Assembly (NCBI GenBank): GCA_934045905.1
Contig: OW203763.1
Span: 39,276,724-39,340,723 of the forward strand
Length of the DNA: 64,000 nucleotides
Direction of reading: 5' to 3'
DNA from: Leuctra nigra
Lineage: Eukaryota; Arthropoda; Insecta; Plecoptera; Leuctridae
Shown here one piece after another: positions 10,301 through 59,584 of the stretch. Position 1 is the stretch's first letter. Every line of letters begins with the position of its first letter. The notes below the pieces were generated by a model. The model had not been told where the DNA came from. It saw nothing but the letters and a program-made list of their open reading frames with translations, and did not search any database. The translations under genes and the position numbers were made by a program.

Positions 10301-13300
10301 GGGATGTTGGCAGTGTAGTCGTTGTGGAGACTCTATGAATCAAGAGTGAGGTCGCTTACCCTGGGATAGTGATATGGAATGGAAGTACCACCCCGACTGT
10401 AGGGGATGTTGGCAGTGTAGTCGTTGTGGAGACTCTATGATTCAAGAGAGAGGTTGCTTACCCTGGGATAGTGATATGGAATGGAAGTACCACCCCGACT
10501 GTAGGGGATGTTGGCAGTGTAGTCGTTGTGGAGACTCTATGATTCAAGAGAGAGGTCGCTTACCCTGGGATAGTGATATGGAATGGAAGTACCACCCCGA
10601 CTGTAGGGGATGTTAGCAGTGTAGTCGTTGTGGAGACTCTATGATTCAAGAGAGAGGTTGCTTACCCTGGGATAGTGATATGGAATGGAAGTACCACCCC
10701 GACTGTAGGGGATGTTGGCAGTGTAGTCGTTGCAGATTCTATGATTCAAGAGAGAGGTTGCTTACCCTGGGATAGTGATATGGAATGGAAGTACCACCCC
10801 GACTGTAGGGGATGTTGGCAGTGTAGTCGTTGTGGAGACTCTATGATTCAAGAGAGAGGTCGCTTACCCTGGGATAGTGATATGGAATGGAAGTACCACC
10901 CCGACTGTAGGGGATGTTGGCAGTGTAGTCGTTGTGGAGACTCTATGAATCAAGAGAGAGGTTGCTTACCCTGGGATAGTGATATGGAATGGAAGTACCA
11001 CCCCGACTGTAGGGGATGTTGGCAGTGTAGTCGTTGCAGACTCTATGATTCAAGAGAGAGGTTGCTTACCCTGGGATAGTGATATGGAATGGAAGTACCA
11101 CCCCGACTGTAGGGGATGTTGGCAGTGTAGTCGTTGTGGAGACTCTATGATTCAAGAGAGAGGTCGCTTACCCTGGGATAGTGATATGGAATGGAAGTAC
11201 CACCCCGACTGTAGGGGATGTTGGCAGTGTAGTCGTTGTGGAGACTCTATGATTCAAGAGAGAGGTTGCTTACCCTGGGATAGTGATATGGAATGGAAGT
11301 ACCACCCCGACTGTAGGGGATGTTGGCAGTGTAGTCGTTGTGGAGACTCTATGAATCAAGAGTGAGGTCGCTTACCCTGGGATAGTGATATGGAATGGAA
11401 GTACCACCCCGACTGTAGGGGATGTTGGCAGTGTAGTCGTTGTGGAGACTCTATGATTCAAGAGAGAGGTTGCTTACCCTGGGATAGTGATATGGAATGG
11501 AAGTACCACCCCGACTGTAGGGGATGTTGGCAGTGTAGTCGTTGTGGAGACTCTATGATTCAAGAGAGAGGTCGCTTACCCTGGGATAGTGATATGGAAT
11601 GGAAGTACCACCCCGACTGTAGGGGATGTTAGCAGTGTAGTCGTTGTGGAGACTCTATGATTCAAGAGAGAGGTTGCTTACCCTGGGATAGTGATATGGA
11701 ATGGAAGTACCACCCCGACTGTAGGGGATGTTGGCAGTGTAGTCGTTGTGGAGACTCTATGATTCAAGAGAGAGGTCGCTTACCCTGGGATAGTGATATG
11801 GAATGGAAGTACCACCCCGACTGTAGGGGATGTTGGCAGTGTAGTCGTTGTGGAGACTCTATGATTCAAGAGAGAGGTTGCTTACCCTGGGATAGTGATA
11901 TGGAATGGAAGTACCACCCCGACTGTAGGGGATGTTGGCAGTGTAGTCGTTGTGGAGACTCTATGATTCAAGAGAGAGGTTGCTTACCCTGGGATAGTGA
12001 TATGGAATGGAAGTACTACCCCGACTGTAGGGGATGTTGGCAGTGTAGTCGTTGTGGAGACTCTATGATTCAAGAGAGAGGTTGCTTACCCTGGGATAGT
12101 GATATGGAATGGAAGTACCACCCCGACTGTAGGGGATGTTGGCAGTGTAGTCGTTGTGGAGACTCTATGATTCAAGAGAGAGGTCGCTTACCCTGGGAAA
12201 GTGATATGGAATGGAAGTACCACCCCAACTGTAGGGGATGTTGGCAGTGTAGTCGTTGTGGAGACTCTTTGATTTAAGAGAGAGGTCGCTTACCCTGGGA
12301 TAGTGATATGGAATGGAAGTACCACCCCGACTGTAGGGGATGTTGGCAGTGTAGCCGTTGCAGACTCTATGATTCAAGAGAGAGGTCGCTTACCCTGGGA
12401 TAGTGATATGGAATGGAAGTACCACCCCGACTGTAGGGGATGTTGGCAGTGTAGTCGTTGCAGACTCTATGATTCAAAAGATAGGTCGCTTACCCTGGGA
12501 TAGTGATATGGAATGGAAGTACCACCCCGACTGTAGGGGATGTTGGCAGTGTAGTCGTTGCAGACTCTATGATTCAAGAGAGAGGTCGCTTACCCTGGGA
12601 TAGTGATATGGAATGGAAGTACCACCCCGACTGTAGGGGATGTTGGCAGTTTAGTCGTTGCAGACTCTATGATTCAAAAGATAGGTCGCTCACCCTGGGA
12701 TAGTGATATGGAATGGAAGTACCACCCCGACTGTAGGGGATGTTGGCAGTGTAGTCGTTGCAGACTCTATGATTCAAAAGATAGGTCGCTTACCCTGGGA
12801 TAGTGATATGGAATGGAAGTACCACCCCGACTGTAGGGGATGTTGGCAGTGTAGTCGTTGTGGAGACTCTATGATTCAAGAGAGAGGTCGCTTACCCTGG
12901 GATAGTGATATGGAATGGAAGTACCACCCCGACTGTAGGGGATGTTGGCAGTGTAGTCGTTGTGGAGACTCTATGATTCAAGAGAGAGTTTGCTTACCCT
13001 GGGATAGTGATATGGAATGGAAGTACCGCCCCGACTGTAAGGGATGTTTGTAGTGTAGTCGTTGTGGAGACTCTATGATTCAAGAGAGAGGTTGCTTACC
13101 CTGGGATAGTTATATGAAATGGAAGTTCCACTCCGACTGTAGGGGATGTTGGCAGTGTAGTCGTTGTGGAGACTCTATAATTCAAGAGAGAGGTCGCTTA
13201 CTCTGGGATAGTGATATGGAATGGAAGTACCACCCCGAATATAGGGGATGTTGGCAGTGTAGTCGTTGCAGACTCTATGATTCAAGAGAGAGGTTGCTTA

Positions 13301-16300
13301 CCCTGGGATAGTGATATGGAATGGAAGTACCACTCCGACTGTAGGGGATGTTGGCAGTGTAGTCGTTGCAGACTCTATGATTCAAGAGAGAGGTTGCTTA
13401 CCCTGGGATAGTGATATGGAATGGAAGTACCACCCCGACTGTTGGGGATGTTGGCAGTGTAGTCGTTGTGGAGACTCTATGATTCAAGAGAGAGGTTGCT
13501 TACCCTGGGATAGTGATATGGAATGGAAGTACCACCCCGACTGTAGGGGATGTTGGCAGTGTTGTCGTTGTGGAGACTCTATGATTCAAGAGAGAGGTTG
13601 CTTACTCTGGGATAGTGATATGGAATGGAAGTACCACCCCGAATATAGGGGATGTTGGCAGTGTAGTCGTTGCAGACTCTATGATTCAAGAGAGAGGTTG
13701 CTTACCCTGGGATAGTGATATGGAATGGAAGTACCACTCCGACTGTAGGGGATGTTGGCAGTGTAGTCGTTGCAGACTCTATGATTCAAGAGAGAGGTTG
13801 CTTACCCTGGGATAGTGATATGGAATGGAAGTACCACCCCGACTGTTGGGGATGTTGGCAGTGTAGTCGTTGTGGAGACTCTATGATTCAAGAGAGAGGT
13901 TGCTTACCCTGGGATAGTGATATGGAAGGGAAGTACCACCCCGACTGTAGGGGATGTTGGCAGTGTAGTCGTTGCAGACTCTATGATTCAAGAGAGAGGT
14001 TGCTTACCCTGGGATAGTGATATGGAAGGGAAGTACCACCCCGACTGTAGGGGATGTTGGCAGTGTAGTCGTTGCAGACTCTATGATTTAAGAGAGAGGT
14101 CGCTTACCCTGGGATAGTGATATGAAATGGAAGTACCACCCCGACTGTAGGGGATGTTGGCAGTGTAGTCGTTGCAGACTCTATGATTCAAGAGAGAGGT
14201 TGCTTACCCTGGGATAGTGATATGGAATGGAAGTACCACCCCGACTGTAGGGGATGTTGGCAGTGTAGTCGTTGCAGACTCTATGATTCAAGAGAGAGGT
14301 CGCTTACCCTGGGATAGTGATACGGAATGGAAGTACCACCCCGACTGTAGGGGATGTTGGCAGTGTAGTCGTTGCAGACTCTATGATTCAAGAGAGAGGT
14401 TGCTTACCCTGGGATAGTGATATGAAATGGAAGTTCCACCCCGACTGTAGGGGATGTTGGCAGTGTAGTCGTTGTGGAGACTCTATGATTCAAGAGAGAG
14501 GTTGCTTACCCTGGGATAGTGATATGGAATGGAAGTACCACCCCGACTGTAGGGGATGTTGGCAGTGTAGTCGTTGCAGACTCTATGATTCAAGAGAGAG
14601 GTCGCTTACCCTGGGATAGTGATATGGAATGGAAGTACCACCCCGACTGTAGGGGATGTTGGCAGTGTAGTCGTTGCAGACTCTATGATTCAAGAGAGAG
14701 GTTGCTTACCCTGGGATAGTGATATGAAATGGAAGTTCCACCCCGACTGTAGGGGATGTTGGCAGTGTAGTCGTTGTGGAGACTCTATGATTCAAGAGAG
14801 AGGTTGCTTACCCTGGGATAGTGATATGGAATGGAAGTACCACCCCGACTGTAGGGGATGTTGGCAGTGTAGTCGTTGCAGACTCTATGATTCAAGAGAG
14901 AGGTCGCTTACCCTGGGATAGTGATATGGAATGGAAGTACCACCCCGACTGTAGGGGATGTTGGCAGTGTAGTCGTTGCAGACTCTATGATTCAAGAGAG
15001 AGGTCGCTTACCCTGGGATAGTGATATGGAATGGAAGTACCACCCCGACTGTAGGGGATGTTGGCAGTGTAGTCGTTGTGGAGACTCTATGATTTTAAGA
15101 GAGAGGTCGCTTACCCTGGGATAGTGATATGAAATGGAAGTACCACCCCGACTGTAGGGGATGTTGGCAGTGTAGTCGTTGCAGACTCTATGATTCAAGA
15201 GAAAGGTCGCTTACCCTGGGATAGTGATATGGAATGGAAGAACCACCCCAACTGTAGGGGATGTTGGCAGTGTAGTCGTTGTGGAGACTCTATGATTCAA
15301 GAGAGAGGTTGCTTACCCTGGGTGATATGGAATGGAAGTATCGCCCCGACTGTAGGGGATGTTGGCAGTGTAGTCGTTGCAGACTCTATGATTCAAGAGA
15401 AAGGTCGCTTACCCTGGGATAGTGATATGGAATGGAAGTACCACCCCGACTGTAGGGGATGTTGGCAGTGTAGTCGTAGTGGAGACTCTATGATTCAAGA
15501 GAGAGGTTGCTTACCCTGGGTGATATGGAATGGAAGTATCGCCCCGACTGTAGGGGATGTTGGCAGTGTAGTCGTTACAGACTCTATGATTCAAGAGAGA
15601 GGTCGCTTACCCTGGGATAGTGATACGGAATGGAAGTACCACCCCGAATGTAGGGGATGTTGTCAGTGTAGTCGTTGCAGACTCTTTGATTTAAGAGAGA
15701 GGTTGCTTACCCTGGGATAGTGATATGGAATGGAAGTACCACCCCGACTGAAGGGGATGTTGGCAGTGTAGTCGTTGCAGACTCTATGATTCAAGAGAGA
15801 GGTTGCTTACCCTGGGATAGTGATATGGAATGGAAGTACCACCCCGACTGTAGGGGATGTTGGCAGTGTAGTCGTTGCAGACTCTATGATTCAATGAGAG
15901 GTCGCTTACCCTGGGATAGTGATATGGAATGGAAGTACCACCCCGACTGTAGGGGATGTTGGCAGTGTAGTCGTTGCAGACTCTATGATTCAAGAAAGAG
16001 GTTGCTTACCCTGGGATAGTGATATGAAATGGAAGTTCCACCCCGACCTTAGGGGATGTTGGCAGTGTAGTCGTTACAGACTCTATGATTCAAGAGAGAG
16101 GTCGCTTACCCTGGGATAGTGATATGGAATGGAAGTACCACCCCAACTGTAGGGGATGTTGTCAGTGTAGTCGTTGCAGACTCTTTGATTTAAGAGAGAG
16201 GTTGCTTACCCTGGGATAGTGATATGAAATGGAAGTACCACCCCGACTGTAGGGGATGTTGGCAGTGTAGTCGCTGCAGACTCTATGATTCAAGAGAGAG

Positions 16301-19300
16301 GTAGCTTACCCTGGGATAGTGATATGGAATGGAAGTTCCACCCCGACTGTAGGGGATGTTGGCAGTGTAGTCGTTGCAGACTCTATGATTCAAGAGAGAG
16401 GTTGCTTACCCTGGGATAGTGATATGAAATGGAAGTTCCACCCCGACTGTAGGGGATGTTGGCAGTGTAGTCGTTGTGGAGACTCTATGATTCAAGAGAG
16501 AGGTTGCTTACCCTGGGATAGTGATATGGAATGGAAGTACCACCCCGACTGTAGGGGATGTTGGCAGTGTAGTCGTTGCAGACTCTATTATTCAAGAGAG
16601 AGGTTGCTTTCCCTGGGATAGTGATACGGAATGGAAGTACCACCCCGACTGTAGGGGATGTTTGCAGTGTAGTCGTTGTGGAGACTCTATAATTCAAGAG
16701 AGAGGTCGCTTACCCTGGGATAGTGATATGGAATGGAAGTACCACCCCGACTGTAGGGGATGTTGGCAGTGAAGTCGTTGCAGACTTTATGATTCAAGAG
16801 AGAGGTAGCTTACCCTGGGATAGTGATATGGAATGGAAGTACCACCCCGACTGTAGGGGATGTTGGTAGTGTAGTCGTTGTGGAGACTCTATAATTCAAG
16901 AGAGAGGTCGCTTACCCTGGGATAGTGATATGGAATAGAAGTACCACCCCGACTGTAGGGGATGTTGGCAGTGTAGTCGTTGCAGACTCTATGATTCAAG
17001 AGAGAGGTTGCTTACGATGGGATAGTGATATGAAATGGAAGTTCACCCCGACTGTAGGGGATGTTGGCAGTGTAGTCGTTGCAGACTCTATGATTCAAGA
17101 GAGAGGTAGCTTACCCTGGGATAGTGATATGGAATGGAAGTACCACCCCGACTGTAGGGGATGTTGGCAGTGTAGTCGTTGTGGAGACTCTATAATTCAA
17201 GAGAGAGGTCGCTTACCCTGGGATAGTGATATGGAATAGAAGTACCACCCCGACTGTAGGGGATGTTGGCAGTGTAGTCGTTGCAGACTCTTTGATTCAA
17301 GAGAGAGGTTGCTTACCCTGGGATAGTGATATGAAATGGAAGTTCACCCCGACTGTAGGGGATGTTGGCAGTGTAGTCGTTGCAGACTCTATGATTCAAG
17401 AGAGAGGTAGCTTACCCTGGGATAGTGATATGGAATGGAAGTACCACCCCGACTGTAGGGGATGTTGGCAGTGTAGTCGTTGTGGAGGCTCTATGATTCA
17501 AGAGAGAGGTTGCTTACCCTGGGATAGTGATATGGAATGGAAGTACCACCCCGACTGTAGGGGATGTTGGCAGTGTAGTCGTTGTGGAGACTCTATGATT
17601 CAAGAGAGAGGTTGCTTACCCTGGGATAGTGATACGGAATGGAAGTACCACCCCGACTGTAGGGGATGTTGGCAGTGTAGTCGTTGTGGAGACTCTATAA
17701 TTCAAGAGAGAGGTCGCTTACCCTGGAATAGTGATATGGAATGGAAGTACCACCCCGACTGTAGGGGATGTTGGCAGTGTAGTCGTTGTGGAGACTCTAT
17801 GATTCAAGAGAGAGGTCGCTTACCCTGGGATAGTGATATGAAATGGAAGTTCCACCCCGACTGTAGGGGATGTTGGCAGTGATGTCGTTGTGGAGACTCT
17901 ATAATTCAAGAGAGAGGTCGCTTACCCTGGGATAGTGATATGAAATGGAAGTACCACCCCGACTGTAGGGGATGTTGGCAGTGTAGTCGCTGCAGACTCT
18001 ATGATTCAAGAGAGAGGTTGCTTACCCTGGGATAGTGATATGGAATGGAAGTTCCACCCCGACTGTAGGGGATGTTGGCAGTGTAGTCGTTGCAGACTCT
18101 ATGATTCAAGAGAGAGGTTGCTTACCCTGGGATAGTGATATGAAATGGAAGTTCCACCCCGACTGTAGGGGATGTTGGCAGTGTAGTCGTTGTGGAGACT
18201 CTATGATTCAAGAGAGAGGTTGCTTACCCTGGGATAGTGATATGGAATGGAAGTACCACCCCGACTGTAGGGGATGTTGGCAGTGTAGTCGTTGCAGACT
18301 CTATTATTCAAGAGAGAGGTTGCTTTCCCTGGGATAGTGATACGGAATGGAAGTACCACCCCGACTGTAGGGGATGTTTGCAGTGTAGTCGTTGTGGAGA
18401 CTCTATAATTCAAGAGAGAGGTCGCTTACCCTGGGATAGTGATATGGAATGGAAGTACCACCCCGACTGTAGGGGATGTTGGCAGTGAAGTCGTTGCAGA
18501 CTTTATGATTCAAGAGAGAGGTAGCTTACCCTGGGATAGTGATATGGAATGGAAGTACCACCCCGACTGTAGGGGATGTTGGTAGTGTAGTCGTTGTGGA
18601 GACTCTATAATTCAAGAGAGAGGTCGCTTACCCTGGGATAGTGATATGGAATAGAAGTACCACCCCGACTGTAGGGGATGTTGGCAGTGTAGTCGTTGCA
18701 GACTCTATGATTCAAGAGAGAGGTTGCTTACCCTGGGATAGTGATATGAAATGGAAGTTCACCCCGACTGTAGGGGATGTTGGCAGTGTAGTCGTTGCAG
18801 ACTCTATGATTCAAGAGAGAGGTAGCTTACCCTGGGATAGTGATATGGAATGGAAGTACCACCCCGACTGTAGGGGATGTTGGCAGTGTAGTCGTTGTGG
18901 AGACTCTATAATTCAAGAGAGAGGTCGCTTACCCTGGGATAGTGATATGGAATAGAAGTACCACCCCGACTGTAGGGGATGTTGGCAGTGTAGTCGTTGC
19001 AGACTCTTTGATTCAAGAGAGAGGTTGCTTACCCTGGGATAGTGATATGAAATGGAAGTTCACCCCGACTGTAGGGGATGTTGGCAGTGTAGTCGTTGCA
19101 GACTCTATGATTCAAGAGAGAGGTAGCTTACCCTGGGATAGTGATATGGAATGGAAGTACCACCCCGACTGTAGGGGATGTTGGCAGTGTAGTCGTTGTG
19201 GAGGCTCTATGATTCAAGAGAGAGGTTGCTTACCCTGGGATAGTGATACGGAATGGAAGTACCACCCCGACTGTAGGGGATGTTGGCAGTGTAGTCGTTG

Positions 19301-22300
19301 TGGAGACTCTATAATTCAAGAGAGAGGTCGCTTACCCTGGAATAGTGATATGGAATGGAAGTACCACCCCGACTGTAGGGGATGTTGGCAGTGTAGTCGT
19401 TGTGGAGACTCTATGATTCAAGAGAGAGGTCGCTTACCCTGGGATAGTGATATGAAATGGAAGTTCCACCCCGACTGTAGGGGATGTTGGCAGTGATGTC
19501 GTTGTGGAGACTCTATGAATCAAGAGTGAGGTCGCTTACCCTGGGATAGTGATATGGAATGGAAGTACCACCCCGACTGTAGGGGATGTTGGCAGTGTAG
19601 TCGTTGCAGACTCTATGATTCAAGAGAGAGGTCGCTTACCCTGGGATAGTGATATGGAATGGAAGTACCACCCCGACTGTAGGGGATGTTGGCAGTGTAG
19701 TCGCTGCAGACTCTATGATTCAAGAGAGAGGTTGCTTACCCTGGGATAGTGATATGGAATGGAAGTTCCACCCCGACTGTAGGGGATGTTGGCAGTGTAG
19801 TCGTTGCAGACTCTATGATTCAAGAGAGAGGTTGCTTACCCTGGGATAGTGATATGAAATGGAAGTTCCACCCCGACTGTAGGGGATGTTGGCAGTGTAG
19901 TCGTTGTGGAGACTCTATGATTCAAGAGAGAGGTTGCTTACCCTGGGATAGTGATATGGAAGTACCACCCCGACTGTAGGGGATGTTGGCAGTGTAGTCG
20001 TTGCAGACTCTATTATTCAAGAGAGAGGTTGCTTTCCCTGGATAGTGATACGGAATGGAAGTACCACCCCGACTGTAGGGGATGTTTGCAGTGTAGTCGT
20101 TGTGGAGACTCTATAATTCAAGAGAGAGGTCGCTTACCCTGGGATAGTGATATGGAATGGAAGTACCACCCCGACTGTAGGGGATGTTGGCAGTGAAGTC
20201 GTTGCAGACTTTATGATTCAAGAGAGAGGTAGCTTACCCTGGGATAGTGATATGGAATGGAAGTACCACCCCGACCCCGACTGTAGGGGATGTTGGTAGT
20301 GTAGTCGTTGTGGAGACTCTATAATTCAAGAGAGAGGTCGCTTACCCTGGGATAGTGATATGGAATAGAAGTACCACCCCGACTGTAGGGGATGTTGGCA
20401 GTGTAGTCGTTGCAGACTCTATGATTCAAGAGAGAGGTTGCTTACCCTGGGATAGTGATATGAAATGGAAGTTCACCCCGACTGTAGGGGATGTTGGCAG
20501 TGTAGTCGTTGCAGACTCTATGATTCAAGAGAGAGGTAGCTTACCCTGGGATAGTGATATGGAATGGAAGTACCACCCCGACTGTAGGGGATGTTGGCAG
20601 TGTAGTCGTTGTGGAGACTCTATAATTCAAGAGAGAGGTCGCTTACCCTGGGATAGTGATATGGAATAGAAGTACCACCCCGACTGTAGGGGATGTTGGC
20701 AGTGTAGTCGTTGCAGACTCTTTGATTCAAGAGAGAGGTTGCTTACCCTGGGATAGTGATATGAAATGGAAGTTCACCCCGACTGTAGGGGATGTTGGCA
20801 GTGTAGTCGTTGCAGACTCTATGATTCAAGAGAGAGGTAGCTTACCCTGGGATAGTGATATGGAATGGAAGTACCACCCCGACTGTAGGGGATGTTGGCA
20901 GTGTAGTCGTTGTGGAGGCTCTATGATTCAAGAGAGAGGTTGCTTACCCTGGGATAGTGATACGGAATGGAAGTACCACCCCGACTGTAGGGGATGTTGG
21001 CAGTGTAGTCGTTGTGGAGACTCTATAATTCAAGAGAGAGGTCGCTTACCCTGGAATAGTGATATGGAATGGAAGTACCACCCCGACTGTAGGGGATGTT
21101 GGCAGTGTAGTCGTTGTGGAGACTCTATGATTCAAGAGAGAGGTCGCTTACCCTGGGATAGTGATATGAAATGGAAGTTCCACCCCGACTGTAGGGGATG
21201 TTGGCAGTGATGTCGTTGTGGAGACTCTATGAATCAAGAGTGAGGTCGCTTACCCTGGGATAGTGATATGGAATGGAAGTACCACCCCGACTGTAGGGGA
21301 TGTTGGCAGTGTAGTCGTTGCAGACTCTATGATTCAAGAGAGAGGTCGCTTACCCTGGGATAGTGATATGGAATGGAAGTACTTCCCCGACTGTAGGGGA
21401 TGTTGGCAGTGTAGTCGTTGCAGACTCTATGATTCAAGAGAGAGGTTGCTTACCCAGGGATAGTGATATGGAATGGAAGTACCACCCTGACTGTAGGGGA
21501 TGTTGGCAGTGTAGTCGTTGTGGAGACTCTATAATTCAAGAGAGAGGTCGCTTACCCTGGGATAGTGATATGGAATAGAAGTACCACCCCGACTGTAGGG
21601 GATGTTGGCAGTGTAGTCGTTGCAGACTCTTTGATTCAAGAGAGAGGTTGCTTACCCTGGGATAGTGATATGAAATGGAAGTTCACCCCGACTGTAGGGG
21701 ATGTTGGCAGTGTAGTCGTTGCAGACTCTATGATTCAAGAGAGAGGTAGCTTACCCTGGGATAGTGATATGGAATGGAAGTACCACCCCGACTGTAGGGG
21801 ATGTTGGCAGTGTAGTCGTTGTGGAGGCTCTATGATTCAAGAGAGAGGTTGCTTACCCTGGGATAGTGATATGGAATGGAAGTACCACCCCGACTGTAGG
21901 GGATGTTGGCAGTGTAGTCGTTGTGGAGACTCTATGATTCAAGAGAGAGGTTGCTTACCCTGGGATAGTGATACGGAATGGAAGTACCACCCCGACTGTA
22001 GGGGATGTTGGCAGTGTAGTCGTTGTGGAGACTCTATAATTCAAGAGAGAGGTCGCTTACCCTGGAATAGTGATATGGAATGGAAGTACCACCCCGACTG
22101 TAGGGGATGTTGGCAGTGTAGTCGTTGCAGACTCTTTGATTCAAGAGAGAGGTTGCTTACCCTGGGATAGTGATATGGAATGGAAGTACCACCCCGACTG
22201 TAGGGGATGTTGGCAGTGTAGTCGTTGTGGAGACTCTATGATTCAAGAGAGAGGTTGCTTACCCTGGGATAGTGATATGGAATGGAAGTACCACCCCGAC

Positions 22301-22732
22301 TGTAGGGGATGTTGGCAGTGTAGTCGTTACAGACTCTATGATTCAAGAGAGAAGTTGCTTACCCTGGGATAGTGATATGGAATGGAAGTACCACCCCGAC
22401 TGTAGGGGATGTTGGCAGTGTAGTCGTTACAGACTCTATGATTCAAGAGAGAGGTCGCTTACCCTGGGATAGTGATATGGAATGGAAGTACCACCCCGAC
22501 TGTAGGGGATGTTGGCAGTGTAGTCGTTGTGGAGACTCTATGATTCAAGAGAGAGGTCGCTTACCCTGGGATAGTGATATGAAATGGAAGTTCCACCCCG
22601 ACTGTAGGGGATGTTGGCAGTGTAGTCGTTGTGGAGACTCTATGAATCAAGAGTGAGGTCGCTTACCCTGGGATAGTGATATGGAATGGAGTACCACCCC
22701 GACTGTAGGGGATGTTGGCAGTGTAGTCGTTG
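1375..22732. repeat. 100/102-bp satellite array, about 210 units, with higher-order structure
   Basis: A head-to-tail array runs without interruption from about 1375 to the first N gap. There are two unit classes: 100 bp with CGTTGCAGACTC and 102 bp with CGTTGTGGAGACTC. Units differ at few positions (for example GGTTGC/GGTCGC/GGTAGC, and ATGGAATGG/ATGAAATGG/ACGGAATGG). Blocks of units recur in the same order at spacings of 8465, 7870, 1016 and about 1715 bases, so the array grew by segmental duplication. The 102-bp units stay in frame and give long open frames with a Cys-rich 34-residue repeat on the plus strand; I treat these as a by-product of the period. On the minus strand nearly every unit has CCCCTACAG and, 37 nt later, a GTAAGC preceded by CCCAGG, which resemble a splice acceptor and donor. 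Array length in the assembly may be wrong. Confidence 0.97.
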
Positions 22733-22932
22733 NNNNNNNNNNNNNNNNNNNNNNNNNNNNNNNNNNNNNNNNNNNNNNNNNNNNNNNNNNNNNNNNNNNN
22801 NNNNNNNNNNNNNNNNNNNNNNNNNNNNNNNNNNNNNNNNNNNNNNNNNNNNNNNNNNNNNNNNNNNNNNNNNNNNNNNNNNNNNNNNNNNNNNNNNNNN
22901 NNNNNNNNNNNNNNNNNNNNNNNNNNNNNNNN
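22733..22932. other. Assembly gap (200 N)
   Basis: This is a run of exactly 200 unknown bases. The 100/102-bp satellite ends on its left side and the unrelated 95-bp satellite begins on its right. The true distance, and whether the two arrays are adjacent in the genome, cannot be told from this sequence. Confidence 0.99.
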
Positions 22933-25900
22933 CTTGAGCACGCGTGTGGGCTGCGTGGGGCAGTGTAAGCCTGCATAGCCCGGCTGCATGCGCACATGCA
23001 CTAGCGCTCACCTTCATTGTAGAGAGTCTTGAGCACGCGTGTGGGCTGCGTGGGGCAGTGTAAGCCTGCATAGCCCGGCTGCATGCGCACATGCACTAGC
23101 GCTCACCTTCATTGTAGAGAGTCTTGAGCACGCGTGTGGGCTGCGTGGGGCAGTGTAAGCCTGCATAGCCCGGCTGCATGCGCACATGAACTAGCGCTCA
23201 CCTTCATTGTAGAGAGTCTAGAGCACGCGTGTGGGCTGCGTGGGGCAGTGTAAGCCTGCATAGCCCGGCTGCATGCGCACATGAACTAGCGCTCACCTTC
23301 ATTGTAGAAAGTCTTGAGCACGCGTGTGGGCTGCGTGGGGCAGTGTAAGCCTGCATAGCCCGGCTGCATGCGCACATGCACTAGCGCTCACCTTCATTGT
23401 AGAGAGTCTTGAGCACGCGTGTGGGCTGCGTGGGGCAGTGTAAGCCTGCATAGCCCGGCTGCATGCGCACATGCACTAGCGCTCACCTTCATTGTAGAGA
23501 GTCTTGAGCACGCGTGTGGGCTGCGTGGGGCAGTGTAAGCCTGCATAGCCCGGCTGCATGCGCACATGCACTAGCGCTCACCTTCATTGTAGAGAGTCAT
23601 GAGCACGCGTGTGGGCTGCGTGGGGCAGTGTAAGCCTGCATAGCCCGGCTGCATGCGCACATGCACTAGCGCTCACCTTCATTGTAGAGAGTCTTGAGCA
23701 CGCGTGTGGGCTGCGTGGGGCAGTGTAAGCCTGCATAGCCCGGCTGCATGCGCACATGCACTAGCGCTCACCTTCATTGTAGAGAGTCATGAGCACGCGT
23801 GTGGGCTGCGTGGGGCAGTGTAAGCCTGCATAGCCCGGCTGCATGCGCACATGCACTAGCGCTCACCTTCATTGTAGAGAGTCTTGAGCACGCGTGTGGG
23901 CTGCGTGGGGCAGTGTAAGCCTGCATAGCCCGGCTGCATGCGCACATGCACTAGCGCTCACCTTCATTGTAGAGAGTCTTGAGCACGCGTGTGGGCTGCG
24001 TGGGGCAGTGTAAGCCTGCGTAGCCCGGCTGCATGCGCACATGCACTAGCGCTCACCTTCATTGTAGAGAGTCTTGAGCACGCGTGTGGGCTGCGTGGGG
24101 CAGTGTAAGCCTGCATAGCCCGGCTGCATGCGCACATGCACTAGCGCTCACCTTCATTGTAGAGAGTCTTGAGCACGCGTGTGGGCTGCGTGGGGCAGTG
24201 TAAGCCTGCATAGCCCGGCTGCATGCGCACATGCACTAGCGCTCACCTTCATTGTAGAGAGTCATGAGCACGCGTGTGGGCTGCGTGGGGCAGTGTAAGC
24301 CTGCATAGCCCGGCTGCATGCGCACATGAACTAGCGCTCACCTTCATTGTAGAGAGTCTAGAGCACGCGTGTGGGCTGCGTGGGGCAGTGTAAGCCTGCA
24401 TAGCCCGGCTGCATGCGCACATGAACTAGCGCTCACCTTCATTGTAGAGAGTCTTGAGCACGCGTGTGGGCTGCGTGGGGCAGTGTAAGCCTGCATAGCC
24501 CGGCTGCATGCGCACATGCACTAGCGCTCACCTTCATTGTAGAGAGTCTTGAGCACGCGTGTGGGCTGCGTGGGGCAGTGTAAGCCTGCATAGCCCGGCT
24601 GCATGCGCACATGCACTAGCGCTCACCTTCATTGTAGAGAGTCTTGAGCACGCGTGTGGGCTGCGTGGGGCAGTGTAAGCCTGCATAGCCCGGCTGCATG
24701 CGCACATGCACTAGCGCTCACCTTCATTGTAGAGAGTCTTGAGCACGCGTGTGGGCTGCGTGGGGCAGTGTAAGCCTGCATAGCCCGGCTGCATGCGCAC
24801 ATGCACTAGCGCTCACCTTCATTGTAGAAAGTCTTGAGCACGCGTGTGGGCTGCGTGGGGCAGTGTAAGCCTGCATAGCCCGGCTGCATGCGCACATGCA
24901 CTAGCGCTCACCTTCATTGTAGAGAGTCTTGAGCACGCGTGTGGGCTGCGTGGGGCAGTGTAAGCCTGCATAGCCCGGCTACATGCGCACATGCACTAGC
25001 GCTCACCTTCATTGTAGAGAGTCTTGAGCACGCGTGTGGGCTGCGTCGGGCAGTGTAAGCCTGCATAGCCCGGCTGCATGCGCACATGCACTAGCGCTCA
25101 CCTTCATTGTAGAGAGTCTTGAGCACGCGTGTGGGCTGCGTGGGGCAGTGTAAGCCTGCATAGCCCGGCTACATGCGCACATGCACTAGCGCTCACCTTC
25201 ATTGTAGAGAGTCTTGAGCACGCGTGTGGGCTGCGTGGGGCAGTGTAAGCCTGCATAGCCCGGCTGCATGCGCACATGCACTAGTGCTCACCTTCATTGT
25301 AGAGAGTCTTGAGCACGCGTGTGGGCTGCGTGGGGCAGTGTAAGCCTGCATAGCCCGGCTGCATGCGCACATGCACAAGCGCTCACCTTCATTGTAAAGA
25401 GTCTTGAGCACGCGTGTGGGCTGCGTGGGGCAGTGTAAGCCTGCATAGCCCGGCTGCATGCGCACATGCACTAGCGCTCACCTTCATTGTAGAGAGTCTT
25501 GAGCACGCGTGTGGGCTGCGTGGGGCAGTGTAAGCCTGCATAGCCCGGCTGCATGCGCACATGCACTAGCGCTCACCTTCATTGTAGAGAGTCATGAGCA
25601 CGCGTGTGGGCTGCGTGGGGCAGTGTAAGCCTGCATAGCCCGGCTGCATGCGCACATGCACTAGCGCTCACCTTCATTGTAGAGAGTCTTGAGCACGCGT
25701 GTGGGCTGCGTGGGGCAGTGTAAGCCTGCATAGCCCGGCTGCATGCGCACATGCACTAGCGCTCACCTTCATTGTAGAGAGTCTTGAGCACGCGTGTGGG
25801 CTGCGTGGGGCAGTGTAAGCCTGCATAGCCCGGCTGCATGCGCACATGCACTAGCGCTCACCTTCATTGTAGAGAGTCTTGAGCACGCGTGTGGGCTGCG

Positions 25901-27849
25901 TGGGGCAGTGTAAGCCTGCATAGCCCGGCTGCATGCGCACATGAACTAGCGCTCACCTTCATTGTAGAGAGTCTTGAGCACGCGTGTGGGCTGCGTGGGG
26001 CAGTGTAAGCCTGCGTAGCCCGGCTGCATGCGCACATGCACTAGCGCTCACCTTCATTGTAGAGAGTCTAGAGCACGCGTGTGGGCTGCGTGGGGCAGTG
26101 TAAGCCTGCATAGCCCGGCTGCATGCGCACATGCACTAGCGCTCACCTTCATTGTAGAGAGTCTTGAGCACGCGTGTGGGCTGCGTGGGGCAGTGTAAGC
26201 CTGCATAGCCCGGCTGCATGCGCACATGAACTAGCGCTCACCTTCATTGTAGAGAGTCTTGAGCACGCGTGTGGGCTGCGTGGGGCAGTGTAAGCCTGCA
26301 TAGCCCGGCTGCATGCGCACATGCACTAGCGCTCACCTTCATTGTAGAGAGTCTTGAGCACGCGTGTGGGCTGCGTGGGGCAGTGTAAGCCTGCATAGCC
26401 CGGCTGCATGCGCACATGCACTAGCGCTCACCTTCATTGTAGAGAGTCTTGAGCACGCGTGTGGGCTGCGTGGGGCAGTGTAAGCCTGCATAGCCCGGCT
26501 GCATGCGCACATGCACTAGCGCTCACCTTCATTGTAGAGAGTCTTGAGCACGCGTGTGGGCTGCGTGGGGCAGTGTAAGCCTGCATAGCCCGGCTGCATG
26601 CGCACATGCACTAGTGCTCACCTTCATTGTAGAGAGTCTTGAGCACGCGTGTGGGCTGCGTGGGGCAGTGTAAGCCTGCATAGCCCGGCTGCATGCGCAC
26701 ATGCACAAGCGCTCACCTTCATTGTAAAGAGTCTTGAGCACGCGTGTGGGCTGCGTGGGGCAGTGTAAGCCTGCATAGCCCGGCTGCATGCGCACATGCA
26801 CTAGCGCTCACCTTCATTGTAGAGAGTCTTGAGCACGCGTGTGGGCTGCGTGGGGCAGTGTAAGCCTGCATAGCCCGGCTGCATGCGCACATGCACTAGC
26901 GCTCACCTTCATTGTAGAGAGTCATGAGCACGCGTGTGGGCTGCGTGGGGCAGTGTAAGCCTGCATAGCCCGGCTGCATGCGCACATGCACTAGCGCTCA
27001 CCTTCATTGTAGAGAGTCTTGAGCACGCGTGTGGGCTGCGTGGGGCAGTGTAAGCCTGCGTAGCCCGGCTGCATGCGCACATGCACTAGCGCTCACCTTC
27101 ATTGTAGAGAGTCTAGAGCACGCGTGTGGGCTGCGTGGGGCAGTGTAAGCCTGCATAGCCCGGCTGCATGCGCACATGCACTAGCGCTCACCTTCATTGT
27201 AGAGAGTCTTGAGCACGCGTGTGGGCTGCGTGGGGCAGTGTAAGCCTGCATAGCCCGGCTGCATGCGCACATGCACTAGCGCTCACCTTCATTGTAGAGA
27301 GTCTTGAGCACGCGTGTGGGCTGCGTGGGGCAGTGTAAGCCTGCATAGCCCGGCTGCATGCGCACATGCACTAGCGCTCACCTTCATTGTAGAGAGTCTT
27401 GAGCACGCGTGTGGGCTGCGTGGGGCAGTGTAAGCCTGCATAGCCCGGCTGCATGCGCACATGCACTAGCGCTCACCTTCATTGTAGAGAGTCTTGAGCA
27501 CGCGTGTGGGCTGCGTGGGGCAGTGTAAGCCTGCATAGCCCGGCTGCATGCGCACATGAACTAGCGCTCACCTTCATTGTAGAGAGTCTTGAGCACGCGT
27601 GTGGGCTGCGTGGGGCAGTGTAAGCCTGCATAGCCCGGCTGCATGCGCACATGCACTAGCGCTCACCTTCATTGTAGAGAGTCTTGAGCACGCGTGTGGG
27701 CTGCGTGGGGCAGTGTAAGCCTGCATAGCCCGGCTGCATGCGCACATGCACTAACGCTCACCTTCATTGTAGAGAGTCTTGAGCACGCGTGTGGGCTGCG
27801 TGGGGCAGTGTAAGCCTGCATAGCCCGGCTGCATGCGCACATGAACTAG
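22933..27849 (-). repeat. 95-bp satellite array derived from a Nup154 exon and its splice donor
   Basis: About 52 tandem 95-bp units are nearly identical. On the minus strand each unit reads as the 3' end of the Nup154 exon at 27762-28012: residues HVRMQPGYAGLHCPTQP, then TRVLKTLYNEG, then the donor GAAG|GTGAGC, after which the next unit starts. The right-hand end of the array runs directly into that exon. Because 95 is not a multiple of 3, successive units fall in different frames, so read-through gives the same segment in three frames. Most units have ATGCACTAG where the exon has ATGAACTAG, but several units keep the exon-like form. A 1330-bp block (14 units) is repeated exactly enough that 25199-25471 and 26529-26801 give identical translations, which shows higher-order duplication. 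Confidence 0.95.
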
Positions 27850-28012
27850 CTGCAGCGTGGTCGGCCGAGATATCGGATTCAGCAGAGCGCTGGCAGTGAA
27901 GTACAAGCGAACCCCGGCGCGAGACACGGCCATGAAGTTCAGGTGGCGGGATTCTGCCATCTCAATCACACAGAGGCTGTGTATCGGATACAGCACGGAG
28001 GCGTCAACGCAG
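27762..28012 (-). CDS. Nup154: Nup154 (NUP155-family nucleoporin), exon E: end of the propeller region
   Basis: This is the last exon of the gene that I can identify. Seen: a pyrimidine-rich acceptor ending CTGCTCCAG just above 28012, an open frame of 83 codons plus one base at each end, and a donor GAAG|GTGAGC at 27762/27761. The translation contains LCVIEMAESRHLNFMAV, SRAGVRLYF and LVHVRMQPGY. Family members have VIENSES, THAGVRLYF and LVHVRLPPGF at the same points (from memory of NUP155). The first base completes a Gly codon split with exon 29433-29853. The 3' 84 bases or so and the donor are the unit that was amplified into the 95-bp satellite just downstream. Which of about 52 equivalent donors is used cannot be read from sequence; I chose the first one met. 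Confidence 0.9.
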
Positions 28013-29432: not shown

Positions 29433-29853
29433 CCGATGACGCGGGTTGCATTGGCAACGATCTCGTCCAGCGTCATGCTGGCTACCATGCGGATGGAGTC
29501 GCCAGACTCTCCCAGATAGTAGACCGTGATCGTCCCGCCGGCAGACAGTGTGTACAAGATGTTTCGGCTCTCATCCACAACGATCTGCATGGTCGGATCA
29601 TCCGGATAGAACTGCGTCTTTATGATTCTCGGTACAAGGAACCACAAGAATCCGCTGGAACGGTTTACTATCTTGCCACAATTGCCCTTCTTATCTTGGT
29701 AGAACACTTCCATGAGATTTCCCTCGATGTCCCCAAAGAAAATGCGGCCTTTGCTGGTAGTTGCAATTGCGTTGGTAGGAAAGCATTGGATGGGGATACC
29801 CAGCATAGGTTCAGTTTGGAATTCGAGGTCGGTAATTCTCCCGGAATCGTCTT
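29433..29853 (-). CDS. Nup154: Nup154, exon D: beta-propeller core
   Basis: This is the best conserved exon: 139 codons plus two bases at each end. The acceptor is TTTCTTTTCAG above 29853 and the donor is GG|GTAAGTG below 29433. Diagnostic stretches are GRIFFGDIEGNLMEVFYQ, GFLWFLVPRI, DPTMQIVVDESRNILYT and GGTITVYYLGESGDSIRMV. These line up without large gaps with NUP155-family propeller sequence such as GRIFLAGKDGCLYEVAYQ and DPILQIAIDNSRNILYT (from memory of the family). The protein is an inner-ring scaffold nucleoporin of the nuclear pore. Its N-terminal propeller lies next to the nuclear membrane. No stop or frameshift is seen, which favours a working gene. In the family the N-terminal propeller is followed by an alpha-solenoid, and its exons are not visible in this window. 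Confidence 0.94.
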
Positions 29854-29926: not shown

Positions 29927-30078
29927 CTTTGAACTTCAATCCGAGTATAATGATTTCAAAAACCGAAACTAGACACACAACGTGCTTGATCCTTTTACTA
30001 AACACTCCGCGCTTGGGGGCTAAAAGGCCGCAGCTCAGAATGGGCGAGTGCATTCCTTCGTATGCAGTTATTTCCCTC
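29927..30078 (-). CDS. Nup154: Nup154, exon C: early propeller
   Basis: The exon is 152 bp: one base to finish a codon, 50 codons, and one base carried into the next exon. The acceptor is CTGTTTCAG above 30078; the donor is AAAG|GTAGGA at 29927. It encodes ITAYEGMHSPILSCGLLAP and then KRGVFSKRIKHVVCLVS followed by IIILGLKF, matching the NUP155 pattern AGIFQPHVRHLLVLATP and VDIVILGL. The G left at its end joins AA of exon D to make a Glu codon, so the 73-bp intron between them (29854-29926) is phase-consistent. That intron is the only one seen here without inserted DNA. Confidence 0.9.
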
Positions 30079-31389: not shown

Positions 31390-32074
31390 CTTAGAAGACT
31401 CCGATGTGTAGGAGGCGACGTACACAGAGGGTGAAACAGAGGGTGGCGACTGAGTATCTTTAGAGACGTGTAGGAGGCGACGTACACAGAGGGTGGGACA
31501 GAGGGTGGCGCCTGAGTAACCAGGAGGACGTGATGGAGGCGACGTACACAGAGGGTGGGACAGAGGGTGGCGCCTGAGTAGCAAGAGGGGCGTGATGGAG
31601 GCGACGAACACAGAGGGTGAAACAGAGGGTGGCGACTGAGTAGCTAGAGGGACGTGATGGAAGCGACGTACACAGAGGGTGGGACAGAAGATGGCGCCTG
31701 AGTAGCAAGAGGGACGTGTAGGAGGCGACGTACACAGAGGGTGGGACAGAGGATGGCGCCTGAGTAGCAAGAGGGACGTGATGGAGGCGACGTACACAGA
31801 GGGTGGGACAGAGGATGGCGCCTGAGTAGCAAGAGGGACGTGATGGAGGCGACGTACACAGAGGGTGGGACAGAGGATGGCGCCTGAGTAGCAAGAGGGA
31901 CGTGATGGAGGCGACGTACACAAAGGGTGGGACAGAGGGTGGCGCCTGAGTAGCAAGAGGGACGTGATGGAGGCGACGTACACAGAGGGTGGGACAGAGG
32001 GTGGCGCCTGAGTAGCAAGAGGGACGTGATGGAGGAGACGTACACAGAGGGTGAAACAGAGGGTGGCGACTGAG
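31390..32074. repeat. 62-bp minisatellite, first part (about 11 units)
   Basis: Tandem units of 62 bp contain GGCGACGTACACAGAGGGTG and GACAGAGGGTGGCG. Since 62 is not a multiple of 3, all three minus-strand frames stay open over hundreds of bases, giving Ser/Pro-rich low-complexity translations that I do not regard as protein. The array sits in the intron between Nup154 exons B and C. A transposon at 32075-32984 splits it from the second part. Confidence 0.93.
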
Positions 32075-34482: not shown

Positions 34483-34579
34483 TCTCCATTCAATTTCCAG
34501 AGGTATAAGTCACTGTCGACGGTCAGCCACGCTCGAGCGATTTCAGGGAAGATTCCCATTGTCCAATTGTGTTTCATGC
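34483..34579 (-). CDS. Nup154: Nup154, exon B
   Basis: This 97-bp exon has two bases, 31 codons and two bases. It encodes MGIFPEIARAWLTVDSD followed by LYLWKLNGE, almost the same as the NUP155 signature MGVFPEISRAWLTIDSD (from memory). Two acceptors are possible. GGACGCAG just above 34579 keeps phase with exon A and gives an ungapped join. TTTTGCAG above 34617 would break phase, so I chose the former. The donor is GGAGA|GTGAGT at 34483; the carried bases GA plus G of exon C make Glu. Confidence 0.9.
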
Positions 34580-39171: not shown

Positions 39172-39446
39172 GATAAAGCTGAAACATGATCGCAGGCGGA
39201 TGTGGAACTTTGGAGGTCTTTCCGAGCAGCTTGATGTCTGAGGCTCCAGTTCTCGCCCCCGCATTATTAATAGTGTGGTAGTCGAACTCTGAGTTCCCGC
39301 TGATCGTCGCCCCACTTCGTTGCACTTTCATCAGCGAGAACAGGGACGGTGTTGCCGCATCCGCGTTCAGAAACTTCACAAGTGTCGAACCACCGAGTGT
39401 CAGCAACTCCGTTTCATTCTTGGCATCCGTTGACAGTATGTAGCTC
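39172..39446 (-). CDS. Nup154: Nup154, exon A: N-terminal region
   Basis: The exon has one base, 91 codons and one base. It encodes TELLTLGGSTLVKFL, DAATPSLFSLMKVQRSG, ATISGNSEFDY and KVPHPPAIMFQLY. The NUP155 N-terminus has the same layout: an amphipathic helix, a PSL..LM segment, PTVSGMSDMDY and VPLPPELVEQF (from memory). The acceptor is CTTGTAG above 39446. The donor TATC|GTATCC at 39172/39171 is weak but gives an in-phase join to exon B (C plus GC makes Arg) with no gap against the family. The first exon with the start codon is not identified. The 5' part of this exon is the ancestor of, or a sister to, the 121-bp satellite that begins immediately upstream. Confidence 0.87.
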
Positions 39447-40229
39447 CTACAAGACAGATGTTACACTTGCATCAAGATGAGTGATGGAGTTGCAGCATCT
39501 TAGACAGATGCCTCTCAAGTGTCAGCAACTCTGTCGGCTTGTAGCATCCCTTGACACCGTGTAACTCCTACAAGACAGATGTTTCACTTGCATCAAGATG
39601 AGTGATGGAGTTGCAGCATCCTAGACAGATGCTTCTCAAGTGTCAGCAACTCTGTCTGCTTGTAGCATCCCTTGACACCGTGTAGCTTCTACAAGACAGA
39701 TGTTACTCTTGCATCAAGATGAGTGATGGAGTTGCAGCATCCTAGACAGATGCTTCTCAAGTGTCAGCAACTCTGTCTGCTTGTAGCATCCCTTGACACC
39801 GTGTAGCTCCTACAAGACAGATGTTACTCTTGCATCAAGATGAGTGATGGAGTTGCAGCATCCTAGACAGATGCTTCTCAAGTGTCAGCAACTCTGTCGG
39901 CTTGTAGCATCCCTTGACACCGTGTAGCTCCTACAAGACAGATGTTACACTTGCATCAAGATGAGTGATGGAGTTGCAGCATCTGCAGACAGATGCTTCT
40001 CAAGTGTCAGCAACTCTGTCGGCTTGTAGCATCCTTTGACACCGTGTAGCTCCTACAAGACAGATGTTACACTTGCATCAAGATGAGTGATGGAGTTGCA
40101 GCATCCTAGACAGATGCTTCTCAAGTGTCAGCAACTCTGTCGGCTTGTAGCATCCCTTCACACCGTGTAGCTCCTTCAAGACAGATGTTACACTTGCATC
40201 AAGATGAGTGATGGAGTTGCAGCATCCGC
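39447..40229 (-). repeat. 121-bp satellite array, part 1 (about 6.5 units), derived from Nup154 exon A
   Basis: Tandem units of 121 bp begin at the acceptor of Nup154 exon A and run to the LINE insertion at 40230. On the minus strand each unit has an acceptor (CATCTGTCTTGTAG), then GAGCTACACGGTGTCAAGG, then codons for TELLTLEKHLS and, one base out of frame, DAATPSLILMQV. The exon has TELLTL, VKFLNA and DAATPSLFSLMKV in the same order, so the unit is a diverged, frameshifted copy of exon A lacking 15 bases. Units are homogeneous among themselves but about one quarter to one third different from the exon, so they diverged before the array spread. Confidence 0.9.
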
Positions 40230-40390
40230 TGCAGTTCATGGCTAGTACCCGAGGAGAACGGACGTACTTCCTAAACATCACAGCGAGCACTGATAACAGG
40301 ACGAGAGCGCTGCTGCGCCGCAGCTAACAGGTTAGTGGTTGGTTTTGACCAAACAATTATAGAACACACAAGAGAGAAAATTAAGAAAAA

Positions 40391-41482
40391 ATGAATCAGA
40401 CGAACAATAAAACAACGAGAAAAAACACAATTCAATGTCAAATAGAAAGAGAGCAACAACGATTATCACCGCTGGAAATTCACGAATTTCTACACGCAGA
40501 TTTGCAACTGAACGTGGATCAAATAGAAGCAATACAACTTAACGCAGAAAACAATTCGTTCTACATAAAAATTGTATCAACACTTCTATTTCAAAAATTA
40601 ATTCAAGCTCATGCAGGATTAAAAAAATTCAAATATCAAAACGGATCAACTGGTCAACTAAGAATTATGAACGCGGAAGAAAATCTTACAACTGTCAGAG
40701 TATTTAATATCCCTCCAGAAGTAAACAACATGGAAATTAAGAAAGAACTAGACAATTACGGAACAATAAAAGAAATAACAGATGAGAAGTGGTCTACACG
40801 ATTTAAATACCCGGTAAACAATGGAATCAGAGCTATCAGGATGACAGTAAAAAAACCTATACCATCTTACATGAGTATAGGTGGATACAGAGCCCAGATT
40901 CAACACTTTGGACAAGAAAAAACATGTCAAATATGTGGAGAGAGAAATCACATAAAACAAGATTGTCCAGAACGCCGACACATAGCACATGTTCCTATTA
41001 ATAACGGGAACAGATATGCTCAATACCAACAACAACAGCAACAGCAGCAACAATAACAACAACAACAACCAAAACCACAACAGACACGTTCCACAGAAAG
41101 AAATTGGAAGTAATGAGAATATGATGCAGTTTGAAAATCCACCTGACGACACTACACTAATACACAAGGACATTGACGATGAAACAATAATTGAGGTAGT
41201 ATTGGAAGTAGAACCCAGAGAAAACGAGAAGAAGAAGAAGAAGACGAACCAGAGATAGATACAACACGGGAAGACAACCGGGAAACAACAGAGTCAGAAA
41301 GTAGTGTAGAACACGATAATGCAGATCAAACAAAGACAAATGAAGAAGACAAGAAAAGCGGAGGCAAGGGGAAAAAAAAGAAATCAAAAAATGGCAAACC
41401 ACAAGAAAACAGGGCATCTCAATCGGAAATAGAAAGCGAATTAGAAAGCATAGACAACGAAGACATGTCAGTAGAAGAGTAG
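40391..41482 (+). pseudogene. LINE ORF1: CCHC zinc-knuckle RNA-binding protein with frameshifts
   Basis: The open frame runs 222 codons from 40391 to a stop at about 41056 in a glutamine (CAA/CAG) tract. Residues 64-140 look like a weak RRM-type fold (RVFNIPPEVNNMEIKKEL, DNYGTIKEI), and then a CCHC knuckle, CQICGERNHIKQDC, follows. After the glutamine tract the sequence goes on in a second frame (VPQKEIGSNENMMQF) to about 41258, then in a third (DEPEIDTTRED, ending EDMSVEE) to the stop at 41480-41482, an acidic Lys/Glu-rich tail. These shifts lie at simple repeats (CAA and GAA runs), so slippage or sequencing error is likely. ORF1 proteins bind the element's RNA. Confidence 0.8.
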
Positions 41483-41718
41483 AAAGTAATAAGAGAAAAG
41501 CCAAGAGTAAGGAACTCGACAAGAAATGAAACACTGAACACCGAAAGTAAACCTAAAACAAAAAAAAAAGAAAATACACGATCCGCCATTAATTCAACCT
41601 CTTACGAATCTGTTCAACACAGCGACAACCAATAATACGAATATAAGCCAAAAGGAACCTGGCGCCTCCACATTGGCAAAAAAAGAATGACAAAAATTCA
41701 ACAACACAAACAAACAAA

Positions 41719-44700: not shown

Positions 44701-44977
44701 TATTGACACCCTTGACCACAGATTAACAGAATGTATAGGGAAACATAACTGGCTATGGCTAAAAGAAAAAGTTAATAAAATCACAAATCAGGCTAAAATA
44801 ACCGATGAACAACTATATAATTTAGATTTTAGGTTAAAATGTGGGGATGTGCAGAGGGCAGTGGTTTGGCTGGTGTCTGGAACTGTACACTGCAATCTAA
44901 TCTTAGCTTCAGCGGTAGCTGACGAAGGGAATGTGAAAAGCATGGCTTTTCTAAAAACTGAGTTAAGAACAAAATGA
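41719..44977 (+). pseudogene. LINE ORF2: APE endonuclease plus reverse transcriptase, two frameshifts
   Basis: Segment one (41719-42750) is an AP-endonuclease-like domain with LNINGIRNK, ILLLQEI, YIYAPSG, IAGDFNCV, SRIDRFHVS and SDHHAV, the usual order of catalytic motifs. Segment two (42747-44243) is the reverse transcriptase: KSPGPDGITYEFYK, PITLLN, SLDFNKAFDRV, VRQGCPLSMALF and the active-site YADDV. Segment three (44250-44977) starts in a third frame with GGLGLI and has a C-terminal CKHC...HRLTEC knuckle. The breaks near 42735 and 44235 are single-base shifts, so this copy cannot make the full protein unless they are sequence errors. All catalytic residues are otherwise present. Such a protein copies its own RNA into nicked chromosomal DNA. 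Confidence 0.92.
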
Positions 44978-45394
44978 CTGGAAATTGGAAAACAAGGTAG
45001 AACCAAATACTTTGCAAGACATATTTTCTGTTTTTAAAATTTAAGTGTAAGGCAAATGTTTCAAATGTGTGTATTAAATTGATAAAATACTGGGAACATG
45101 GGAAACTGAATGAATTGCATTAGATGAACAGAAGATTATTGTGAGATTGTGAACTTGAGTGAAAAATGTGAATGTAATTGTAATATTGTGAAATGGTTTT
45201 TGTGAAATGTAAATTGTAAAATTGTGAACGTTAATTATGAAATGTCATCCGTGAATTGCAAAATTATAATTTGTATGATTTATCAATCGAAAAACTGTGA
45301 AATTGTGAATTGTAAATTAAGAATTGTGATTTATGAAATGTGATGTGTGAAAATGTCAATTGTAAAATTGTAAAAATAAAACAATAATAAAAAA

Positions 45395-54657: not shown

Positions 54658-54665
54658 GTGCTTAT

Positions 54666-59446: not shown

Positions 59447-59584
59447 TGAATTGTTCCCGCCTTGTTTCTCCTTCTTTCCTCTTCCCTTCCTCAATGACAG
59501 GCATGCACTTTGACCAGACTTGGTGCACTACACGCTGCAAAATCAACCCGGCTTCAGTCTCGATTTACGTGCGGGCCAGCAACG

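Follow-up and report, generated by a model that had tools for sequence, protein, structure and literature searches.

Tandem copying of exon borders into the neighbouring intron was recently described from the dot chromosomes of the chicken and termed exon stuttering or 'sequence stuttering' (PMC12954441, 2026). In the part of that report drawn on here, the arrays comprise 1-44 units with a median of 4, 46 of the 236 stuttering introns lie off the dot chromosomes, such that the link to these chromosomes is an association and not a definition, and the phenomenon is called unreported in any other vertebrate. In the literature searched, the term was met in a single paper and no arthropod case came to light. 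The sequence analyzed in this work is a 64,000-nucleotide stretch of the genome of the plecopteran insect Leuctra nigra (C13:39276724-39340723; referred to as the window), which carries exons of a NUP155-family nucleoporin gene on scaffold C13. Four exons are affected, of which one was seen only in a sister copy of the gene on the same scaffold (copy B). In each case a border segment, comprising part of the exon and its own splice site (donor or acceptor), forms head-to-tail repeats that extend into the neighbouring intron, and the true exon border is the end unit of the array. The resulting arrays, named E, Y, N and the last-exon array in the following, very probably represent local tandem expansions from exon-intron borders and hence a case of exon stuttering; the NUP155 gene concerned is a diverged second copy.

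According to the same part of the chicken report, a lateral part of a coding exon together with its donor or acceptor is tandemly copied through the adjacent intron, the exon itself stays intact, more than one intron per gene can be hit and an array-free related copy exists elsewhere. All of this is also seen here, with the NUP155 gene on scaffold C2 and the C13 copies corresponding to chicken PHF2 and PHF8, respectively. Arrays E and N and the last-exon array have part of the neighbouring exon in their repeat unit, and so has array Y, as revealed by copy B; the unit includes a splice site, that is a donor in arrays E and Y and an acceptor in array N and the last-exon array; the copies of array E are clustered beside their source exon; and the source exons have kept their coding character, with an open frame across the joined exons and a stop codon in the last exon. 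Unlike in the chicken, the host is an arthropod, the scaffold measures 51.7 Mb and is no dot chromosome, so that the association with dot chromosomes is lacking, up to 212 units are present as opposed to 1-44, and the units of array E are nearly identical whereas the PHF8 example is characterized by an edit distance below 20%.

Two further systems offer themselves for comparison. Intron gain by tandem duplication, as outlined in the part considered of a study on potato RdRp (PMC4974935; Hellsten 2011 on ATP2A1 is cited therein), likewise starts when a segment spanning an exon-intron border, or containing AGGT, is duplicated in tandem. In contrast, the present case requires no new intron. The intron following exon E resides at the same residue and in the same phase in the array-free C2 copy (donor GTGAGA), and intron gain was rejected on these grounds. 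In Drosophila, kl-3 and kl-5 have giant introns filled with satellites (PMC6508621), which, as far as that paper was considered, resemble our case in that long tandem arrays lie within introns of protein-coding genes. Their satellites are simple, however, while the units studied here are derived from the neighbouring exon border and contain a splice site. All array lengths reported below stem from one assembly (536 Mb, 144 contigs).

Array E and its source exon

Exon E (27762..28012, minus strand, 251 nt) is preceded by the acceptor CTCCAG/C, followed by the donor AAG/GTGAGC (slashes denote the splice borders; GTGAGC at 27756..27761) and ends with the residues LKTLYNE-G in phase 1. The terminal 89 nt of this exon form the start of a 95-bp array on the same strand (22933..27850), for which Tandem Repeats Finder (TRF) reports a period of 95 and 51.8 copies. 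The unit consists of the 89-nt exon end plus GTGAGC, which rules out an anonymous satellite as the original prediction had rightly put forward, albeit with about 84 coding bases. The same prediction had the array start inside the exon, and in fact the first unit is exon E's own end, reached without any gap. When cut in fixed 95-base steps from the exon end, the array comprises 51 whole units and a 73-base partial unit that ends at a 200-N assembly gap (22733..22932), on the other side of which array Y is located. Both unit counts are therefore minima. Since the partial unit lacks the donor end, 51 and not 52 donors are visible.

The array is highly uniform. Only 11 of the 95 columns vary, all of them within columns 1-79, and 48 of the 51 units show at most one difference from the consensus; the last nine bases, AAG/GTGAGC, are invariant in all 51. 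The first unit deviates from the consensus at one of its 95 bases, a silent change (GTT/GTG, valine), and the exon's T at column 7 occurs in 8 of the 51 units including the exon's own. An exact match to the last 89 bases of exon E is present in 4 of the 50 other units. Blocks of units sharing an identical succession of variants reappear at distances of 11 and 14 units, which is a mark of multi-unit duplication. BLASTN of exon E against the window returned 52 matches including itself, all within 22933-28012. A two-unit query against the insect's own assembly gave at least 26 matches (the search tool treats its counts as lower bounds and skips very common words), and 26 out of 26 fell inside array E.

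The original prediction had spoken of about 52 equivalent donors. Although the visible donors share the same sequence they are not equivalent, because reading through the first one leads via LYNEG-E-R to a stop at the third codon. The exon-proximal donor is the sole one that preserves the reading frame. An expansion of a repeat within the protein was likewise ruled out, as 95 is not divisible by three and the frame closes soon after the first donor. When the variable sites were examined in the coding frame, 6 of 10 were silent compared to 2.84 expected (p = 0.026), while p ranged from 0.13 to 0.97 in the five other frames. The eleventh site, a silent one in the exon (CAG/CAA), was excluded because its codon extends from one unit into the next. 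This slight excess hints that variants may have passed through the live exon.

Further arrays of the same gene

Two more arrays of the same kind, 102-bp array Y and 121-bp array N, belong to the same gene and had been missed by the original prediction. Array Y (102/100 bp, 1375..22732, minus strand) consists of 212 units, each formed by the terminal part of a later NUP155 exon (..SLHNDYTANIPYSRGGTSIPYHYPR), the donor GTAAGC and about 14 nt of intron. In the window it is devoid of any Pfam or PDB match. Its seed exon became apparent in copy B, where an array of 100 bp and 47.8 copies begins inside an exon reading MKCYEEMLDKLDSLMSQSLHNIYTANIPYSRGGTSIPYLYPR followed by GTAAGC, and the assumption of an unrelated satellite was then dropped. 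An exon of the C2 copy resembles this seed exon when compared by eye (MDCYKEVTNILDHLFGQSQSS..), and the intron-side ends of array Y have alike flanks in the window copy and copy B. With units anchored inside the exon part and not cut at the donor, 208 of the 212 window units proved to have an intact GT. Reading past the donor yields PRVSNLSLES and then a stop. Sampled pairs of units were 94.0% identical between the two C13 copies, 94.4% within copy B (39 units) and 96.3% within the window copy (179 units). An array Y query against the fetched genomic stretches matched in the window and copy B alone.

Array N is situated at an acceptor. Exon N (39172..39446, minus strand; SYILSTDAKNETELL..MFQLY) has the acceptor CTTGTAG/G, and a diverged version of this acceptor plus the exon start is repeated in 121-bp units on the same strand. 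An exon-proximal block (39423..40227) contains six units and then the exon start, and a distal block (45395..47763) holds about 20 units. Between them lies an element of the long interspersed nuclear element (LINE) type on the plus strand (40228..45394; ends set by the array blocks and not mapped) with open reading frames (ORFs) for an endonuclease and a reverse transcriptase (PF03372, PF00078). Array N and exon N align with a local score of 78 compared to a maximum of 27 in 1000 shuffles, and BLASTN of exon N against the window gave 25 matches, itself included. Among the 27 units cut, 25 could be aligned and share a mean identity of 97.5% with their own consensus; the acceptor AG is kept in 26 of 26 units. 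One frame of the consensus reads TELLTLEKHL and another DAATPSLILMQV, while exon N contains TELLTLGG..DAATPSLFSLMKV; in the exon frame the consensus unit reaches a stop. Matches to an array N query were found in the window alone among the genomic stretches fetched.

The fourth array is located just outside the window, where 4.7 copies of a 122-bp unit combine the acceptor with the start of the last exon. It is present in copy B, too. Use of an upstream acceptor would result in a different C-terminus, NNHATRTWST. A stop codon closes the last exon, whose assignment is based on its position, its frame and the corresponding match in copy B, not on alignment to PDB.

The uniformity of the donors could indicate that repeated splice sites are selected for, with decoy donors binding the U1 small nuclear ribonucleoprotein (snRNP) and thus slowing or damping splicing, or shielding a long intron from early polyadenylation. 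The identity of all donors in array E and the rarity of damaged GT in array Y are compatible with this idea. However, the chance that the variable columns spare the last 16 of array E amounts to about 0.12 when calculated by hand and is not rare. Moreover, columns 51-58 of array Y lie inside the exon part and are invariant among 189 aligned units, so that lack of variation is no special feature of the donor. Arrays on the acceptor side grow in the same way, which argues that donors as such are not needed, and the C2 copy does without arrays. Taken together, selection for repeated splice sites appears unlikely.

In the framework of exon stuttering, each array would start as a tandem duplication of a single border segment, and unequal exchange and conversion would bring about its growth and uniformity. 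The arrays may be tolerated because they grow on the intron side and the exon-adjacent splice site is used, the remaining sites within the intron acting as decoys. Use of the exon-proximal site is inferred because reading past it meets a stop in arrays E, Y and N; in all four arrays that were read, a repeated site in its place would bring an early stop. The likely consequence would be variation of intron length plus some unproductive splicing, and not a new protein.

Three NUP155 loci on two scaffolds

Exons A (34483..34579), B (29927..30078) and C (29433..29853) lie on the minus strand between exons N and E and are not repeated; BLASTN against the window returned one match for each of them, the exon itself. 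Joined in the order N-A-B-C-E, the five exons form one open frame, and all four introns are bounded by GT-AG. The joined sequence aligns to residues 19-410 of PDB chain 7fik_W (E = 2e-74, 253.8 bits), which we take to be from Xenopus, and to residues 13-416 of 5a9q_A, presumably from human. Exon E on its own finds NUP155 chains in PDB (E about 1e-15). The Nucleoporin_N profile (PF08801, cut-off 23.7 bits) matches exons A and B with 60.9 bits (14 leading intron residues included), C with 60.0 and E with 26.8 bits. Exon N alone gave neither a Pfam match nor a significant PDB match, but raised the score against 7fik_W from 225.6 to 253.8 bits when joined to the other exons. A protein database search with a 321-aa piece produced 792 candidates, none of them significant. 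Downstream of the window, C-terminal exons follow on the same strand and in order. Four of them align to residues 1027-1324 of 7fik_W (E = 6e-42), and positions 340-414 and 492-571 of the Nucleoporin_C profile (PF03177) are found there.

Ten matches came up in a genome-wide search with Nucleoporin_C. Scaffold C2 holds four of them, copy B three and the region downstream of the window two, and the last lies on scaffold C1. This C1 match (positions 290-503 in a 1176-aa open frame) was taken for another nucleoporin, and the window copy, copy B and the C2 copy were compared as NUP155-family loci. Copy B (C13:40124262-40150794) is located about 0.86 Mb from the window copy and shares two arrays with it, Y and that of the last exon. 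The C2 gene (C2:37373541-37388140) is better conserved, its N-terminal part scoring 393 bits against vertebrate NUP155 as compared to 253 bits for the window copy. The window gene is thus best described, as judged from its sequence, as a diverged second copy of NUP155, and the name Nup154 given in the original prediction holds for the family but not without qualification. That prediction had named the lack of the HVRMQPGY...YNEG segment in a relative as evidence against itself; the segment is present in the C2 copy, the one relative seen. Pieces of the C2 copy obtained by tblastn break at the same places as the window exons. Since the N-terminal pieces of the C2 gene are only about 38-58% identical to those of the window copy, the C13 copies represent paralogues that are either old or evolving fast. 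The C2 gene has no array with a period of at least 25 in the 20 kb examined, and none of the 13 exons or exon pieces tested is repeated.

The two C13 copies differ over 741 nt by 0.10 nonsynonymous (dN) and 0.20-0.23 synonymous substitutions per site (dS), and the flanking parts of the gene (introns and some exons) are 75-89% alike in the stretches that could be aligned. The simplest assumption is that array Y and the last-exon array already existed before the two copies separated and have been retained ever since; alternatively, the two loci may have exchanged sequence. Positions 1-339 of Nucleoporin_C, i.e. the middle exons, were not found at the window locus, which holds a gap, and no N-terminal exons were found within the 80 kb examined at copy B, which has a gap of its own upstream of its middle exon (C13:40150852). 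Accordingly, the N-terminal exons of the window may be part of either C13 gene across the gap.

These missing parts weigh against the explanation preferred here, and so do several other observations. The silent excess in array E is weak, and 2 of the 10 variants tested are stops; array Y exhibits no synonymous-change excess in any of six frames; array N is only about 75-80% similar to exon N; arrays E and Y both adjoin the same 200-N gap; and a dN/dS ratio of 0.42-0.50 points to weak constraint, such that the window copy may be decaying.

It could be argued that the window gene is a pseudogene and that the arrays arose by drift in dead sequence. Apart from the weak constraint and the missing middle exons, exon N is without an in-frame ATG before residue 39, and a better-conserved NUP155 exists on C2. 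On the other hand, all ten exons found are open, the five N-terminal ones join in frame with proper splice sites, four C-terminal exons align to Nup155, the last exon has its stop codon and dN/dS stays below 1. Furthermore, an array-bearing exon of a zinc-finger gene (see below) passes its Pfam cut-off. We consider a pseudogene the less probable alternative, yet one that has to be reckoned with, and retain exon stuttering in a diverged gene copy as the preferred explanation.

The window contains several other repeats and open frames. The intron between exons A and B harbours two 62-bp arrays (31411-32074 and 32985-33935), and a 41-bp array of 14 copies (50375-50961) is located upstream of exon N. 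Neither the 62-bp nor the 41-bp units matched any of the five NUP155 exons in BLASTN searches. Two inverted arms of about 0.9 kb (35038-36002 and 38008-38876, 88-97% identical) lie in the intron that separates exons N and A and perhaps belong to a transposable element. An ORF of 131 aa (37439-37834, minus strand) presumably resembles a common arthropod transposon-derived protein but has no Pfam match. A second inverted repeat of 1.67 kb with 99.2% identity (52998-54668 and 61782-63443) encloses a 200-N gap (54933-55132) and could be either a duplication or an assembly palindrome. The ORF at 59498-60154 (plus strand) shows a match to the TGF-beta propeptide below threshold (18.2 bits, cut-off 25.8).

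Exon-border arrays beyond NUP155

A further case emerged from a random sample of twenty pieces (2 kb each, round coordinates), half of them from C13 and half from other scaffolds. One piece, from C2, turned out to be part of an array (C2:5000630-5003342) whose 121-bp units consist of the acceptor and exon start of a zf-AD zinc-finger gene, with the true exon at the array end and part of the array replaced by a 200-N gap (C2:5001013). The source exon passes the Pfam threshold (35.6 bits, cut-off 28). Genes of the zf-AD family, which is typical of insects, are numerous in this genome. None of 20 other zf-AD exons carried copies of its start in the 500 bases upstream (best score 22.0 bits, shuffle maximum 29.2); these 20 are a subset of at least 35 other zf-AD matches listed and were chosen because they begin at profile positions 30-36, their exon starts being approximate. 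Repetition of exon borders is therefore not confined to NUP155, yet it is uncommon among the exons tested. That every exon of the genome behaves in this way was ruled out by the zf-AD exons and the 13 of the C2 NUP155 gene. Two tandem repeats in the sample (L043 and L037) had no exon discernible by eye. C13 as a specially repeat-rich scaffold is not supported, as TRF coverage (period of at least 25) was 3.2% in the ten C13 pieces and 6.3% in the ten others, albeit in a small sample.

Three of the arrays, E, Y and that of the zinc-finger gene, touch or hold a 200-N gap, copy B also has one and scaffold joins across such gaps are inferred. Hence, repeats could have been inflated or misjoined in the assembly, and the links between exons and arrays could be false. 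Against such an artefact, exons E and N, the last exon, the copy B seed exon and the zinc-finger exon all run into their arrays without a gap, array Y and the last-exon array are found again at the sister locus, and the array units bear structured variants. An artefact of assembly is thus highly improbable, and local expansion from exon borders remains our interpretation.

A bolder proposition would be that in the Leuctra nigra lineage exon borders serve genome-wide as recurrent nurseries of satellite DNA, that arrays with dozens to hundreds of splice sites outlast gene duplications, and that the end of a live exon takes part in the homogenisation of its array, such that exon and decoys co-evolve and set splicing. 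We put this forward with considerable reserve and rather doubt that it applies in full.

The occurrence in an arthropod, on a large scaffold and in an unlinked zinc-finger gene, with arrays several times larger than those of the chicken, suggests that the process does not need a dot chromosome and that exon stuttering can make arrays of satellite size. Array E, in addition, presents splice-site choice in the form of a natural experiment: at intervals of 95 bases, 51 donors follow one another that are identical over three exon and six intron bases, and only the first of them preserves the reading frame.

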